Of a stretch of DNA of 57,072 nucleotides, positions 9,313 to 45,471 are shown in pieces. The translations under genes were made by a program, and so were the position numbers. The DNA lies in NCBI GenBank assembly GCA_036141575.1, contig JAYZXF010000015.1, positions 1 through 57,072 on the forward strand, written 5' to 3'. The notes beneath the pieces were generated by a model, which was not told where the DNA came from, ran no database searches, and saw only the letters and a list, made by a program, of their open reading frames with translations. The first letter of the stretch is position 1, and the number at the start of each line of letters is the position of its first letter. Source of the DNA: Pseudomonadota bacterium. GTDB lineage: Bacteria; Pseudomonadota; Alphaproteobacteria; UBA2136; JAPKEQ01.

Positions 9313-9663
9313 TGGGGAATATGAAAAAAAATCACATTAGTTTTCTCCTGACAGTTTTTTCAGGAAATGGTTAAGGGGGCTTGTTTGTGGGCATTTTAAT
9401 TTCTGACAGTTGTCTGACAGGTTTGAAATATAAAGGAAAAGCTTGAAAAACTAGGGGTTTTGGAGTGCTTTTTAGAGGGGGGGAGTGGTGTGCAAGTCTG
9501 CAACAGGGATGTAATAGTTTGTTACGAAAAACATAATAATTTGACTCTTCGGAGTCGGAAAAAGATGCACATGGGAGATATGAATGTGTTATTCTCTCTA
9601 GTGCACATATGTGTCGAACAGGTAGGTGAGACACGTGCCAAAAATAACGAAAGGAAAATCGCG
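9313..9663. other. gene-free region upstream of the secreted-protein array
   Basis: No convincing gene. It holds a repeated TCTGACAG (near 9401-9420), a small GACTC-TTCG-GAGTC hairpin near 9544-9557, and a 5' leader just before the 9664 gene. The leader's GTGTTAY(Y)CT, GTGCACA and GAGACA(C/A)GTGCC blocks recur upstream of the second copy of the array, so the promoter/leader was duplicated with the gene. Confidence 0.5.
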
Positions 9664-10212
9664 ATGAAACTCATGAAGCTACTTTCTGCTACGTGTGCTG
9701 GTGTAATGGCAGCCGCGTCAGCACAGGCAGCAACGCAAGGTATTGCAGGCCCAACATCTACGGGTACCCTTGCTGTAACAATGGACATTCTTGAAGAAGT
9801 AAAAATTAGTAACCTAGCGGATATCGCTCTTGGTCAGTATGTACCAGGTGGTGGTGACCTTACAGGTACTTCTCCAGTATGTGTTTACTATAACAACGCA
9901 AACCAATACGACATCACACCGACGTCTGCAAACTCTGCAGGTCCTGGTTACCAGCTTAACCTTGGTGCTGATAACGTAGCGTACACTGGTGAATTCCAGA
10001 ACGACCGTGTTGGTGCTGGTGCCTTTACGGCATTTAACGAAACAACAGTGTACACTGTAAACACTGCAACAACGACAGATGATGACTGTGTAACTGCGAC
10101 TGACAGTACGTCTACTCTGCGTGTGCGTGTAACAGATACTGGTTCACCACTTCCTGTGGCGAACGGTTCGTACTCAGATACAATTACGCTTGTAGTGGTT
10201 CCAAACCCGTAA
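9664..10212 (+). CDS. secreted 182-residue beta-rich protein, array copy 1
   Basis: Starts at the ATG preceded by AAAGGAAA; a longer in-frame start upstream would destroy the signal peptide. Sec signal peptide with cleavage likely after ASAQA (residue 22). The mature 160 residues are Thr/Asn/Gly/Asp-rich and beta-strand-like, with two cysteines (Cys73 and Cys142) that could form one disulphide. The strand pattern TGTLAVTMDILEEVKISN near the mature N-terminus followed by YDITPTSAN resembles spore-coat-U/DUF4402-type pilin-like domains, but this is only a resemblance. Two further copies follow; this copy is closest to the third (about 85% identical by eye). Likely a surface or extracellular structural subunit. 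Confidence 0.85.
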   Translation: MKLMKLLSATCAGVMAAASAQAATQGIAGPTSTGTLAVTMDILEEVKISNLADIALGQYVPGGGDLTGTSPVCVYYNNANQYDITPTSANSAGPGYQLNLGADNVAYTGEFQNDRVGAGAFTAFNETTVYTVNTATTTDDDCVTATDSTSTLRVRVTDTGSPLPVANGSYSDTITLVVVPNP

Positions 10213-10237
10213 GCTAAGATTTGTACATGTCTGAAAG

Positions 10238-10261
10238 GGCCCCGCATGGCGGGGCCTTTTT
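10238..10261 (+). terminator. intrinsic terminator
   Basis: 8-bp stem GGCCCCGC/GCGGGGCC (10238-10245 with 10249-10256) and a T run. Confidence 0.9.
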
Positions 10262-10427
10262 ACTAAAAACCCCTATCATTCCACGAGTTATAATTTTTCT
10301 CTGATAGATTCAAAATATAGGCATTAACTTTGCAAGTAAAACGCGAAGTATGTGTTACCCTATACAGGTGCACAGATAGATCGAGCAGGTACGCGAGACA
10401 AGTGCCACAATAATAAAAGGAATCGCG

Positions 10428-10976
10428 ATGAACGTCATGAAGACATTTTCTGCGACATGCGCCAGCGTTATGGCTGCTGCATCCGCTCAAGCTGCTACCC
10501 AAGGAGTAGCCGGTCAAACATCTACAGGTACTCTTGCCGTAACAATGGATGTTCTTGAAGAAGTTAAAGTGAGTAATCTTATTGATATGAACCTTGCCCA
10601 GTATGTTCCCGGCGGTGGCGACGTCGTTGGAACGTCTCCAGCTTGTGTGTTCTATAACAATGCAACTCAATATGATATTACAGCTACGTCTGCCAATTCA
10701 GCTGGTCCGGGTTACCAGATGAACCTTGGTGCAAATAATATTCCTTACGGACTAGAATACCGTAATGATGCTCTGGGTGCAGGTGCGTACTCAAATATGA
10801 ACGAAACCGTGACCTATACTGTAACCACAGCCACAACAACAGATGATGACTGTATTACTGCTGGTGGTGACACGTCTGATATTCGCGTAACGGTAACAGA
10901 TACAGGTTCACCGCTAGGTGTTCCAAACGGAACCTACACAGATACAATCACGTTTGTGGTTCAGCCAAATCCATAA
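10428..10976 (+). CDS. secreted 182-residue beta-rich protein, array copy 2
   Basis: Same length and layout as the copies on either side: signal peptide ending ASAQA, mature start ATQG, two cysteines at equivalent positions, C-terminal VVQPNP. It is the most diverged of the three (roughly 70% identical by eye to copy 1), with changes such as NLIDMNLAQY for NLADIALGQY. ATG preceded by AAAGGAA. The 60 bases upstream align with those upstream of copy 1, including GTGCACA and GAGACAAGTGCC, so each copy has its own promoter/leader and terminator. Function unknown; a structural subunit is inferred from the architecture. Confidence 0.85.
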   Translation: MNVMKTFSATCASVMAAASAQAATQGVAGQTSTGTLAVTMDVLEEVKVSNLIDMNLAQYVPGGGDVVGTSPACVFYNNATQYDITATSANSAGPGYQMNLGANNIPYGLEYRNDALGAGAYSNMNETVTYTVTTATTTDDDCITAGGDTSDIRVTVTDTGSPLGVPNGTYTDTITFVVQPNP

Positions 10977-10997
10977 AATATTTTTTATTTTACGAAG

Positions 10998-11020
10998 GCC
11001 CTGATTTTCAGGGCTTTTTT
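10998..11020 (+). terminator. intrinsic terminator
   Basis: 7-bp stem GCCCTGA/TCAGGGC (10998-11004 with 11008-11014) followed by six T. Confidence 0.85.
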
Positions 11021-11195
11021 CGTATGCAAAGTTTGAGGAAGAGGGAAAAACTTAAGGCGGGTCTATGGTTTTGGCATTTAACGTGCAAGTGATTCTGCAA
11101 ATGAGTATATCGCTCTCTTTCGGAGCTTTATGTTTTGGGTATCAGACATGTAGGTCAGTGCCTTGAATAAATAACAATAATAAGGAAATGCAATC

Positions 11196-11744
11196 ATGAA
11201 ATTTATGAAGCTACTTTCTGCGACATGCGCTGGTGTGATGGCTGCTGCTTCTGCACAAGCTGCTACTCAGGGTACTGCAGGTCCTACTTCTACAGGTACT
11301 ATTGCTGTGACAATGGATATCCTTGAGGAAGTAAAGATCAGTAACCTTGTAGATATCGCGCTTGGTCAGTACGTACCTGGTGGTGGTAACCTTACGGGTA
11401 CAACGCCAGTATGTGTGTACTATAACAACGCAACTCAGTACGACATTGCCCCAACATCTGCAAACTCTGCAGGTCCTGGTTACCAGCTTAACCTTGGTGC
11501 GGACAACGTTGCTTACAACGCTGAATACCAGAACGACCGTCTAGGTGCGGGTGCGTTTACAGCCTTCGATGATGGTTCAACGTACACAGTGAACACAGCA
11601 ACAACTACGGATGATGACTGTGTAACTGCGACTGGTGATACATCTACAATTCGTGTAACAGTAACGGATACAGGTTCACCTCTTGGTGTAGCTAACGGTT
11701 CTTACTCTGACACGATTACGCTTGTGGTTACTCCAAACCCGTAA
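11196..11744 (+). CDS. secreted 182-residue beta-rich protein, array copy 3
   Basis: Third tandem copy, same 182-residue length. MKFMKLLSATCAG signal peptide with cleavage after ASAQA, the paired cysteines conserved, and only about 25 differences from copy 1 by eye. ATG preceded by AAGGAAA. The promoter region is less similar to those of copies 1 and 2, keeping mainly GGTCAGTGCC. High similarity between the outer copies, with a more diverged middle copy, suggests gene conversion or a later duplication skipping the middle gene. Confidence 0.85.
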   Translation: MKFMKLLSATCAGVMAAASAQAATQGTAGPTSTGTIAVTMDILEEVKISNLVDIALGQYVPGGGNLTGTTPVCVYYNNATQYDIAPTSANSAGPGYQLNLGADNVAYNAEYQNDRLGAGAFTAFDDGSTYTVNTATTTDDDCVTATGDTSTIRVTVTDTGSPLGVANGSYSDTITLVVTPNP

Positions 11745-29362: not shown

Positions 29363-29448
29363 GTTGGTGTTTTTTCTTTGCTCTCGAAGTCACTTTTTTC
29401 ATGCGCTTCGCTACTTCAAAAAGATGAATTCCCGCAAAGTATGATCTT

Positions 29449-29560
29449 GGCAAAAAAATATTAGGCCTTTTGGTTTTGCCAGCAATCCCAAAAGAACTCT
29501 TTTTTGCCGTCGCAGCCCCTTAGGTCTGCGGCTCGGCTATTCGCCTCGCATGACGTTATG
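29449..29560 (+). repeat. family A nested-hairpin element, copy A1
   Basis: Within the 474-base gene-free stretch after rpoC. Outer stem GGCAAAAAA/TTTTTTGCC (29449-29457 with 29500-29508); inner stem CTTTTGG/CCAAAAG (29467-29473 with 29488-29494) capped by a 14-base loop TTTTGCCAGCAATC; then a second hairpin with CGCAG/CTGCG (29511-29515 with 29526-29530) and a GGCTCGGC...TCGC tail. The same layout with different stem sequences occurs at 45.1 kb. Confidence 0.7.
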
Positions 29561-29591
29561 AATCATCTCAAAATGCTCAATACGTAAAATG

Positions 29592-29705
29592 CTTGCCTAG
29601 TAGATTGCGTAGCGAAGCGGAGCCAAAACGCTCAGGCGTTTTGATCGGTTTAAAGCATTTAAAAATAAGACGGAGGATTATTTTTGCAAAGGTGCGCTTT
29701 AAACC
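29592..29705 (-). repeat. family A nested-hairpin element, copy A3 (minus strand)
   Basis: Same order of parts read on the minus strand. Outer stem GGTTTAAAGC/GCTTTAAACC (29705-29696 with 29656-29647), inner stem AAAAATAA/TTATTTTT (29685-29678 with 29668-29661), then a second hairpin CAAAACGC/GCGTTTTG (29643-29636 with 29631-29624). Its tail GCTCCGCTTCGC...TCTACTAGGC matches that of the 45.1 kb copy (GCTTCG...TCTAGTAGGC). Faces copy A1. The stretch 29706-29790 holds further AT-rich inverted repeats but no gene. Confidence 0.65.
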
Positions 29706-29795
29706 AAGACCGTAGCTTGCGGAGAATCTTATTTTGAAAATTTCATATTTTCTAAATGTGAGGCGGAGAGCAAGCAAAGAGAAACAATATAAAAT

Positions 29796-31735: not shown

Positions 31736-32011
31736 CTACGGCTGCATGGCCATGATGGCGCGCGCCGTCATGTTTGTCATTTCACCAAGGGTGAGGGGGT
31801 GCTTTACTTCAACACACGCTTCAATACCGCCCAAAGGCCATTTATTAATGTCTGCAGCGCATGCAGGGCAATTGTAAGCATGGTTGGCGCGGTTATAGAA
31901 AACAGCGCCCTGTGAAGTGCAGCTGGGGCGGTTACATTCACCGCCAAACACTTGGCCTTTAGGGCCGTTGTGTTGCGGGTAGCGCCGCGGGTGATAAGTC
32001 GGATTTTCCAT
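31736..32011 (-). CDS. unknown Cys-rich small protein, paralogue 1
   Basis: 91 residues, cytosolic. RYPQHNGPKGQVFGGECNRPSC, then YNCPACAADIN, then GGIEACVEVKHPLTL. A paralogue at 32418-32693 has the same blocks and the same length. The four cysteines in C-x4-C and C-x2-C spacing could bind one zinc. AGGAG precedes the ATG. No terminator follows; it continues into the small membrane gene. Family not recognised. Confidence 0.7.
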   Translation of the reverse strand: MENPTYHPRRYPQHNGPKGQVFGGECNRPSCTSQGAVFYNRANHAYNCPACAADINKWPLGGIEACVEVKHPLTLGEMTNMTARAIMAMQP

Positions 32012-32028
32012 AGGAATCTCCTGAAAGG

Positions 32029-32417: not shown

Positions 32418-32693
32418 TTAGACGCGCATGGCTTTCCTGACATCGGCTGCCATGACCTCCATTTCTTCAAGGGTGAGTTGATGATCAACTTCGACACAAG
32501 GAGCAACACCACCCATGGGCATTGCATTGGCGCCACGAGCGTGCTGTTCACACTCGTAGCCCCTTGTGCCATTGTTGAACCATGTGGCGCCATGTTCCGT
32601 GCAGCGGGTGCGGTTGCATTCGCCGCCAAACACTTGGCCCTTGTCGCCTTCATGCTTGGGATAGCGATTCGGGTGACGTTCAGTAGTTGCCAT
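32418..32693 (-). CDS. unknown Cys-rich small protein, paralogue 2
   Basis: 91 residues from the ATG at 32693, with GGAGG six bases upstream; an ATG seven codons earlier has no ribosome site. RYPKHEGDKGQVFGGECNRTRC, GYECEQHARG and GGVAPCVEVDHQLTL line up block by block with 31736-32011, including equal length. Here the second pair is Cys-x3-His rather than Cys-x2-Cys, so a zinc site, if any, would differ. Stop followed by TAATCGAT and a terminator. Confidence 0.7.
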   Translation of the reverse strand: MATTERHPNRYPKHEGDKGQVFGGECNRTRCTEHGATWFNNGTRGYECEQHARGANAMPMGGVAPCVEVDHQLTLEEMEVMAADVRKAMRV

Positions 32694-32781
32694 GGGAAAC
32701 CTCCATTGTGGCATAGGAAAAGAAGAAGTTAATGATGATGAAGATATGGGAATAGAGCAGACTTAATACAAGCCTTCTATG

Positions 32782-37718: not shown

Positions 37719-37739
37719 AAGCCCCCGTAGTGGGGGCTT
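37719..37739 (-). terminator. intrinsic terminator of the helicase gene
   Basis: 8-bp stem AAGCCCCC/GGGGGCTT (37719-37726 with 37732-37739), T run on the minus strand; three bases past the stop. Confidence 0.95.
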
Positions 37740-37742
37740 AAA

Positions 37743-39911
37743 TTAGCGAACCACTTCTAGCTTAGCGAGGCCTGCGACAAGTTTCTTTTGGCCGGCTTTA
37801 TCAAAGGCGATTGTGAGGCGGGCGCCTTCACCTTTACCTTCTGCGCTTTTCACAATGCCGTAGCCAAATTTATCATGGAAGACACGGTTACCTACATTTA
37901 CCTCAGCACCAACGGCACTTGTGTAAGAAACAACAGGCTGCGTGTTCTCGTAGCGGTCTACACTTGAGTGCACTTGTGGACGGAAGAAACCTGTATCAGG
38001 CGTTGCAGCCACCATGTGCAGTGCTTCGTCTGGCATTTCAGCAAGGAAACGAGACGGCGTAGCCGGTTGGAACTGACCATACATACGACGTGAAAAGGCG
38101 TAAGAGATAATCAGTGTTTTACGGGCACGTGTGACCGCTACGTAAGCAAGGCGGCGCTCTTCTTCAAGGCCTTTTTTACCTTCTTCATTCAGGCTGCGCT
38201 GGTGCGGGAAGAGGCCTTCCTCAAAACCTGGTAGGAAGACATTTTCAAACTCTAGCCCTTTGGCGGCGTGAACAGTGGTGATCTTCACTGTGTTTGTACT
38301 GTCCGCATCTCTGTCCATCACAAGGCTGATGTGCTCGAGGAAGGTGCCAATATCGCTAAAGTCTTGCAGAGCCCGGATAAGCTCTTTCAAGTTATCAATG
38401 CGGTTTTTCGCATCAGGATCTTTATCAGTACGTAGCATTTCTAGGTAGCCACTATCTTCCAGAAGGTTTTCCATTAGTTTATCTGGAGAGGTGGTTTCCA
38501 TAGCTTTGCCCGCATCATCAATCAGAGCAATAAACGGACGCAGTTTATTGGCAATGCGACTCTGCAATATGCCGTTCTCAATCGCCATACGGGTGGCAAG
38601 GTACAAGCTTGTTTGGTGCTCACGTGCGAGTTGAGTAAGGGTAGCAATGGCCGCAGGGCCCATACCGCGCTTCGGTACGTTTACAATGCGCTCAAAAGCG
38701 AAGTCATCGCGTGGGCTATTAACAAGGCGTAGGTACGCAATAGCGTCACGAATTTCTTTACGTTCGTAGAAACGCAGTCCACCAATTACCTGATATGGAA
38801 TCCCTTGGCGGATGAAGCGTTCCTCAATAGAGCGGGTTTGTGAAGCCGTACGCACCAGGATCGCAAAGTCATCCCATGCTTCGCCTTGCAGGTCAGTTTC
38901 AATGCGATCAGCAATAAAGCGCGCTTCTTCACGGTCATCAAATACTGGGTGTACTTCGACTTGCTCACCGTCATCGTCAGAGGTCCAAAGGGTTTTATCG
39001 TGGCGCTCTTCGTTATATTTAATCAGGCCTGAAGCTGCATTTAGAATGTGGCCTGTTGAGCGGTAGTTTTGCTCTAGACGAACGGCTTTTGCACCCGGGA
39101 AGTCGCTATCAAAGCGGAGGATGTTCCCCACTTGAGCCCCACGCCATGCGTAAATAGACTGGTCATCATCCCCCACCACGCAAATGTTATTGTGAGTTTG
39201 AACCAGAAGCCTTAGCCACAGGTACTGTACCGTGTTGGTATCTTGGTACTCATCAACCAGTACGTACTTAAACTGGTTCTGGTAACGAGAAAGAATATCT
39301 GGGTTCTTTTTAAATAGCTCAATTGGACGAAGAAGCAGGTCACCAAAGTCTGCTGCATTCGCATCAGCGAGGCGCTTCTCATACATTTTGTAAAAATCAA
39401 TCACGGGAATTTCAAAACCGTAGTGTTCGTTTTCAGGCACTTGGTGCGGAAGCCAGCCGTTATCTTTCCATTTTCCAATCAGGTAAGTCAGTTGGCGGGC
39501 GCTTAGTGTGCTATCGTCAACGCCGCGGTCTTTTAGAATTTGCTTACACACGCTGAGCTGGTCATCAGCCCCCAGAATGGTGAAGTTACGATCAATAAAG
39601 CCAGCAGCTTCAGCATGCATACGTAGAATGCGAGCCCCAAGGCTGTGGAAAGTGCCCAGCCACATACCAGAAGCGGGCATACCGAGCATCTGCTCAATAC
39701 GTTCCAGCATCTCTTTTGCAGCTTTGTTGGTAAAGGTTACCGCAAGCACTTGAGAGGGCGCTGCAAGGCCACTCATTAGAATATGCGCAAGACGTGTTGT
39801 CAGCACACGTGTTTTACCTGTTCCGGCACCTGCGAGCACAAGAAGAGGGCCCTCTGTATGGAGGACGGCTTCACGTTGTGGGTCATTCAGTGTCGAGATC
39901 AGATCTTGCAT
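37743..39911 (-). CDS. UvrD/PcrA-type DNA helicase
   Basis: 722 residues, superfamily 1A. ATP-driven 3'-5' helicase of nucleotide-excision and mismatch repair and of stalled forks. Motifs in order: Walker A AGAGTGKT (27-34), Ia TFTNKAAKEM, II VDEYQDTN, III VVGDDDQSIYAWRGA, IV LEQNYRS, V TTVHAAKGLEFENVF and VI EERRLAYVAVTRAR. The C-terminal Tudor-like segment (VGNRVFHDKFGYGIVKS...) is that by which PcrA/UvrD binds RNA polymerase. UvrD, PcrA and Rep cannot be told apart confidently. Long intergenic leader upstream. Confidence 0.93.
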   Translation of the reverse strand: MQDLISTLNDPQREAVLHTEGPLLVLAGAGTGKTRVLTTRLAHILMSGLAAPSQVLAVTFTNKAAKEMLERIEQMLGMPASGMWLGTFHSLGARILRMHAEAAGFIDRNFTILGADDQLSVCKQILKDRGVDDSTLSARQLTYLIGKWKDNGWLPHQVPENEHYGFEIPVIDFYKMYEKRLADANAADFGDLLLRPIELFKKNPDILSRYQNQFKYVLVDEYQDTNTVQYLWLRLLVQTHNNICVVGDDDQSIYAWRGAQVGNILRFDSDFPGAKAVRLEQNYRSTGHILNAASGLIKYNEERHDKTLWTSDDDGEQVEVHPVFDDREEARFIADRIETDLQGEAWDDFAILVRTASQTRSIEERFIRQGIPYQVIGGLRFYERKEIRDAIAYLRLVNSPRDDFAFERIVNVPKRGMGPAAIATLTQLAREHQTSLYLATRMAIENGILQSRIANKLRPFIALIDDAGKAMETTSPDKLMENLLEDSGYLEMLRTDKDPDAKNRIDNLKELIRALQDFSDIGTFLEHISLVMDRDADSTNTVKITTVHAAKGLEFENVFLPGFEEGLFPHQRSLNEEGKKGLEEERRLAYVAVTRARKTLIISYAFSRRMYGQFQPATPSRFLAEMPDEALHMVAATPDTGFFRPQVHSSVDRYENTQPVVSYTSAVGAEVNVGNRVFHDKFGYGIVKSAEGKGEGARLTIAFDKAGQKKLVAGLAKLEVVR

Positions 39912-45023: not shown

Positions 45024-45058
45024 GTTTGTTTCCTTAATTACTTCTTCACTCTCAGCCT

Positions 45059-45091
45059 ATCATTTTTCAAATGTAAAATTTGTAAAATGAT
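45059..45091. other. AT-rich 14-bp hairpin
   Basis: ATCATTTT-T-CAAAT pairs with ATTTG-T-AAAATGAT around a GTAAA loop (45059-45091), one T-T mismatch. It lies upstream of mnmD and next to family A copy A2. Neither strand shows a downstream T run, so it is not obviously a terminator. Confidence 0.5.
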
Positions 45092-45113
45092 ATTCTCCGT
45101 GAAGTGTTATCTT

Positions 45114-45222
45114 GAAGAAAAGCTTTTTAGGTATTTTAGTCCTGCCAACAGTCCTAAAATATTTACTTTTCTTCGCTCAAAACCTCTTAAGGTTTTGGCT
45201 TCGTGTTACTTCGCACTCTAGT
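45114..45222 (+). repeat. family A nested-hairpin element, copy A2
   Basis: Outer stem GAAGAAAAG/CTTTTCTTC (45114-45122 with 45166-45174); inner stem TATTTTAG/CTAAAATA (45132-45139 with 45154-45161) with a 14-base loop TCCTGCCAACAGTC; then CAAAACC/GGTTTTG (45178-45184 with 45191-45197). Stem lengths, loop length and the 9-base TTAGG spacer match copy A1 at 29.45 kb, but the stem sequences are different and complementary in each. Confidence 0.75.
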
Positions 45223-45225
45223 AGG

Positions 45226-45471
45226 CTAACTCTTTGGTATGCCTTCTAGGCCAAATAAAAACTTAAATCTGCGCTTTGGTTTTTTCGTAATAGAAAAACC
45301 GTTCACTGTGGAAGCTACAAAAACTTTATAGCCAATCCATATGCGAAGATAAATGCCTTTAAGTGAAAACGAGACAAAGCCGGGTTGCCTTGTCTCGTTT
45401 CCATGGTCATCTTCAAGTTCAGTATTGATAAAGGTTTCGTTACCAAAACCGATTTCAGTAAATACCTTCAC
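45226..45471 (-). CDS. DUF3977-like small protein
   Basis: 81 residues. Begins with GTG directly after the lysS stop (TAAGTG), so translation is coupled to lysS. MKVFTEIGFGNETFINTELE and SLKGIYLRIWIGYKVFV match the DUF3977 pattern (F-x-E-I-G-F-G-N then a Y-L-R-I-W-I-G core). Function of DUF3977 is unknown to me. Cytosolic, basic C-terminus. A family A element lies immediately downstream instead of a normal terminator. Confidence 0.75.
   Translation of the reverse strand: MKVFTEIGFGNETFINTELEDDHGNETRQPGFVSFSLKGIYLRIWIGYKVFVASTVNGFSITKKPKRRFKFLFGLEGIPKS

Follow-up and report, generated by a model that had tools for sequence, protein, structure and literature searches.

Detection of dispersed repeats almost always relies on sequence similarity, whereas in the family described here pairing is what is constrained. 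A known case of low sequence constraint is provided by integron attC sites, which are recognised by shape as folded single strands and show little sequence conservation. Our element shares this low conservation and probably the recognition by shape; it differs in having two inverted arms and, in a comparison made by description, no cassette array was seen and the core-site motifs were not noticed. The genes flanking its copies are mostly syntenic with those of a congener.

REP sequences and REPINs of the GTAG and CGTC super-families (PMC3733652, PMC3116915) are, like our element, intergenic, dispersed and palindromic, and both form tail-to-tail or head-to-head dimers. The REP super-families keep a fixed tag, their stems differ between families through complementary changes, and their heterodimers join different stems (PMC3733652); complementary changes and heterodimers with unlike stems recur here. 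The first-pass annotation of this DNA had cast REPs as the opposite of the new family, with conserved stems and a variable remainder, but these published features place the element near REPs. It is nonetheless distinct from them. REPs measure 20–40 bp and have one stem, whereas an arm of our element measures about 190 bp and comprises several helical modules, the majority of them covarying inside a single genome; the usual centre is 16 nt. A short palindrome with a GTAG or CGTC tag is lacking: GTAG is present in the tail of one arm (A2, below) and is not kept across the tails of other copies. Intergenic inverted dimers, including heterodimers, do occur (10 facing pairs), and neither of the two genomes that carry the element encodes a RAYT/Y1 transposase. 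We do not claim membership of the REPs; by analogy, the way of working may be similar.

MITE-like repeats such as Correia, RUP and BOX (PMC3049150) are also non-coding and structured with inverted ends, and BOX is modular. Our element likewise has terminal inverted repeats without coding capacity. These repeats are defined by sequence, however, while the ends of the present element stand out mostly through their architecture and short linkers; it also showed no visible target duplication. Mitochondrial repetitive and double-hairpin elements are similarly dispersed, multi-hairpin, devoid of coding capacity and presumed mobile (PMC2800124); for those of Allomyces no target duplication has been reported (as cited in PMC2800124). 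They differ in being mitochondrial and, in sponges, in keeping stems and varying loops (PMC2800124). The libraries searched yielded nothing quite like the element.

A complete element is about 400 bp long and consists of two inverted arms of about 190 bp each around a short centre. From its outer end, each arm contains a nested-stem module that we call M1, the linker TCTTG, a core of nested stems, the linker CGCTC, a hairpin with a CTTA- or CTGA-type loop, the linker GGCTC, a fourth hairpin and a tail ending near TAGGC. The short linkers are conserved among copies and the stems are variable. The first-pass annotation had the order of the core parts right; it missed M1 upstream, and what it called a TCGC-type tail holds the fourth hairpin. 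Facing arms meet tail to tail. Among the 10 such pairs found, the centre is exactly 16 nt in 7–8, with other spacings of 15, 22 and 33 nt between the modelled arms; the outer stems of the two arms differ in all 10, and eight pairs have exactly one arm of the GTTTAAA type. The inverted ends pair when whole elements are folded. Many arms of the family are unpaired single arms.

In the window, i.e., the whole 57,072-nt stretch analysed, the three copies first described amount to one complete element and one single arm. The complete element (29376–29775) lies between rpoC and the next, convergent gene, and is supported by its structure and by the absence of the block in the congener. Its first arm, A1 (plus strand), opens with M1 at 29376–29439, supported by sequence and by M1 covariation, with the outer stem CTTTGC/GCAAAG (29376–29381/29434–29439) and the inner stem CTTTTT/AAAAAG (29393–29398/29418–29423, from the sequence). 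The A1 core region (29444–29561) runs from TCTTG through the nested core stems (outer 29449–29457/29500–29508, inner 29467–29473/29488–29494, 14-nt loop), the third hairpin (29511–29518/29523–29530, loop CTTA) and the fourth hairpin to the tail. A 33-nt centre (29562–29594) separates this tail from that of arm A3 on the minus strand. The A3 core (29595–29710) comprises the outer stem GGTTTAAAGC/GCTTTAAACC (29705–29696/29656–29647, 10 bp), the inner stem AAAAATAA/TTATTTTT with a core loop of 9 nt, the hairpin CAAAACGC-CTGA-GCGTTTTG and a tail; its M1 (29715–29775, supported on the same basis as in A1) has the outer stem GCTTGC/GCAAGC, pairing 29770–29775 with 29715–29720 in plus-strand numbering. 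A1 and A3 had been described as two copies facing each other after rpoC; they do face each other, as the two arms of one element of about 400 bp.

Arm A2 (45044–45226 including M1, plus strand) has no partner arm. Its M1 (45044–45104, again from sequence and M1 covariation) has the outer stem CTTCAC/GTGAAG (45044–45049/45099–45104) and the inner stems CATTTT/AAAATG and CAAAT/ATTTG. The A2 core (45109–45226) contains the outer stem GAAGAAAAG/CTTTTCTTC (45114–45122/45166–45174), the inner stem TATTTTAG/CTAAAATA with a 14-nt loop, the hairpin CAAAACCT-CTTA-AGGTTTTG and the tail CTAGTAGGC. A small DUF3977 gene on the minus strand (45226–45471) overlaps the end of this arm with its stop codon. All three copies are thus present with the stems first described, and the loops of A1 and A2 are both 14 nt. 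The loop motif TGCCARCARTC has nine exact matches in the genome; we rejected it as a family marker in its own right, the six matches readable on the plus strand folding only at A1 and A2.

We aligned the three copies by hand with N-padding, as MAFFT misaligned A3. In this alignment 97.4% of cells are paired across three helices and 26 pairs, and both sides have changed in 17 of the 26 pairs (shuffle mean 5.7; 0/500 shuffles); the pairing collapses when the partners are shifted by one to three columns. The strict nested geometry appeared in none of 400 Markov-shuffled sequences from the same intergenic DNA. Single-sequence folding z-scores of the three AT-rich copies are modest (−2.6 to −4.7). 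A larger alignment of 59 arms has 94.3% of cells paired and 422 double-change cells, compared with 122 in shuffles. Using a test modelled on R-scape, in which substitutions are redistributed by parsimony along a FastTree tree, we found significant covariation in 16 of the 26 structure pairs against this phylogeny-aware null. Altogether 19 column pairs reached E<0.05: 16 are structural, among them the 15 highest-ranked, and the remaining three fall inside the third hairpin. The proposed combination of conserved architecture and covarying stems holds. The arm alignments were fitted to a covariance model and so lean towards pairing; M1 lies outside the model, and its covariation is for this reason the least biased support for a constraint on pairing. 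M1 stem halves match 6/6 within a copy in 44% of copies, versus 7% for halves taken from different copies.

Searches with covariance models bore out the idea of a new intergenic family. With R1, the model built from A1, A2 and A3, the 1.85-Mb genome yields 37 places at E<1e-3; this count includes the three seeds, and most of the E-values fall far below 1e-10. An improved model from 42 copies (R2) gives 42 arms in this genome and 31 in the congener, an Antarctic marine MAG (ANT-120) and the only other genome of the genus included in the search. The core scores are 111.1 (R1) and 99.5 bits (R2) for A1, 111.3 and 108.4 bits for A3, and 115.9 bits (R1) for A2. Both outcomes that had been named as fatal to the family, i.e., no covariation, or no further copies together with shuffled DNA doing equally well, failed to appear. 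Among 384 other Alphaproteobacteria, three genomes gave one isolated weak match each (E 1e-4 to 5e-4), which we take as chance; because this search scored nine candidates per genome, a few weak copies elsewhere could have escaped it. An exact pattern scan of GTDB genomes returned the congener only, the same scan of IMG/VR gave no match, and plasmid and phage collections had no match to the element. The family is genus-specific and scattered, with about forty copies in the genome of this uncultured marine bacterium.

The scatter is uneven, as 37 of the 42 arms lie on five contigs (C17, C9, C12, C15, which is the window, and C16) which together account for 28% of the genome (p about 6e-16), and the large contigs C1 and C3 have no arm match. 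We considered parS as the cause of this clustering and discarded it: the parS sites are on C13 and do not account for it. All 27 arms checked lie in gene gaps, one overlapping a small predicted ORF by 11 bp; the gaps are co-directional, convergent and divergent, and the arms take both orientations relative to the genes.

Comparison of orthologous sites in the sister species reveals gain and loss. Between the orthologous flanks of the rpoC site lie 56 bp in the congener, compared with 430 here. This short gap contains GAGAGCATAAAGCAAAG, which resembles an element end, so that at this site the congener may have lost a copy instead of our genome having gained one. At the A2 site the congener has 74 bp versus 502 here, and the neighbouring DUF3977 gene is also absent there. 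The block at C17:182.4k is replaced by about 62 bp in the congener, and the dimers at 45.2k and 52.6k of C17 correspond to short gaps there, that at 52.6k with a partial arm. Conversely, the congener carries a copy at C17:84.04k, where our genome has a clean site; no target-site duplication is visible at this cleanest empty site, and other sites are too diverged. At window position 37.72 kb the congener has an element arm where this genome has an intrinsic terminator. The terminator-like hairpin itself lies at 37720–37745, downstream of a minus-strand gene (37743–39911). At roughly half a dozen sites both species carry a copy, and there the stems differ. The flanks at C17:45.1k and 52.6k contain fragments of older arms, which from their sequence look like nested insertion. 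Since a site filled in one species can be empty in its sister, and some copies appear nested, the family undergoes insertion, loss or both; an "empty" site may in some cases reflect a deletion.

Starting from what is observed, namely architecture, covariation, dispersal, gain and loss between sister species, and heterotypic arms, we favour a genus-specific, non-coding and non-autonomous dispersed DNA element of the REP/MITE kind whose ends are recognised by shape (probability roughly 0.6). Because stems vary while spacing is fixed and linkers are conserved, we infer that a recombinase or transposase acting in trans would recognise the ends by their shape and linker sequence, in the form of single-strand hairpins or extruded cruciforms. 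Recognition of this kind would leave the stems free to change as long as pairing is kept. Instability of a perfect 400-bp palindrome may be what keeps the two arms different, and conversion between copies together with template-switch repair probably speeds the joint change of stem arms. Our search for a mover covered PF01797, PF00078 and PF00589. Neither genome (98% and 85% complete) has a Y1/RAYT transposase (PF01797), for which control genomes were positive, or a reverse transcriptase (PF00078); each has three tyrosine recombinases (PF00589), tentatively XerC, XerD and one other. We count against the mobile-element reading that no target-site duplication was seen, that no Y1/RAYT or reverse transcriptase was found and that many arms are single, and against free movement the crowding of arms into 28% of the genome, a pattern not expected of a freely moving element. 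The bolder proposal that this is a new class of bacterial mobile DNA, with ends recognised almost wholly by their multi-hairpin shape, moved by an enzyme other than Y1/RAYT, and losing similarity while keeping its fold, is a tentative one that we consider possible but doubtful.

The first-pass annotation had left open whether a folded RNA or single-stranded DNA is selected. The covariation stands, but a structured non-coding RNA or mRNA 3'-end element, in which pairing is selected in the transcript, seems to us rather unlikely. Structured RNAs typically show strong covariation along with conserved loops and linkers, several copies start directly 3' of a stop codon, and the congener's arm at 37.72 kb replaces a terminator. 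However, the modelled strand has 1244 Watson-Crick, 15 G·U (1.1%) and 47 A·C cells, so that G·U is not enriched over A·C although the covariance model favours it (the tRNA control for G·U frequency, with 96 cells, is too small); the stems therefore look preserved as DNA hairpins rather than as RNA. The excess of A·C, which would read as G·U on the opposite strand, was tried as a strand signal and set aside, being partly located at helix ends and weak on interior pairs (15 A·C versus 5 G·U, p 0.04); a weak pairing signal for an RNA of that strand may nevertheless be present. No promoter was predicted in the rpoC copy. The few G·U pairs, the occupation of gaps of all three orientations, divergent ones included, and the lack of a predicted promoter thus leave an RNA from the strand as first read unsupported. 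Rfam matches at the gathering threshold in the window are limited to tRNAs, with five element loci giving sub-threshold matches only; the element combines significant covariation with no match to a curated family.

Pairing could also arise without selection for folding, if replication switches template within a hairpin and rewrites one arm from the other (quasipalindrome correction), which would give apparent covariation in hairpin-rich repeats of any kind. Template switching is known to generate and preserve stems (PMC8794818), G·U intermediates are few among the almost exclusively Watson-Crick pairs, and at C17:14.1k the whole stem differs between the species (CCGTAGCG/CGCTACGG versus CTAAATGC/GCATTTAG) within similar linkers. 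Yet it explains neither why linkers are more conserved than stems, nor the constant spacer lengths, the 16-nt centre and the dispersal of units; we regard it as an unlikely full account, and it may act alongside a shape-recognised mobile element. Far less probable is a transcription terminator or chromosome-organising site held in place by its function. The intergenic position, often just 3' of genes, and the concentration on part of the genome would suit it, but divergent gaps are also occupied, many sites are unoccupied in the sister species, and within the rpoC copy no terminator is predicted, the sole terminator-like site being rpoC's own terminator region, retained upstream of the element. 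As for chance, AT-rich intergenic DNA often folds into nested stems, and the AT-richness and modest z-scores of the three copies agree with this; such a reading is already refuted by copy number and E-values, and the shuffled sequences, the phylogeny-aware covariation and the near absence of matches in the 384 other genomes also oppose it.

Stems of this family turn over even at orthologous sites of sister species, which suggests that structure-based scans would reveal repeat families missed by sequence scans. Should shape recognition turn out to drive its movement, the family would offer a natural test case for hairpin-recognising recombination beyond REPs and integrons; should template switching be the source of its covariation, the family would caution that covariation by itself does not have to imply a functional RNA.

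Other repeats were noted in the window. A 41-nt inverted repeat (51475–51515/51865–51905; 85% complementary, arms 349 nt apart) has no match to R1. Two diverged 112-nt direct repeats (31905–32016 and 32587–32698) lie in short minus-strand ORFs and probably correspond to a duplicated small gene. Finally, three tandem paralogous genes of about 180–250 aa occupy positions 9460–11744 and are 71–84% identical over 165–300 nt.
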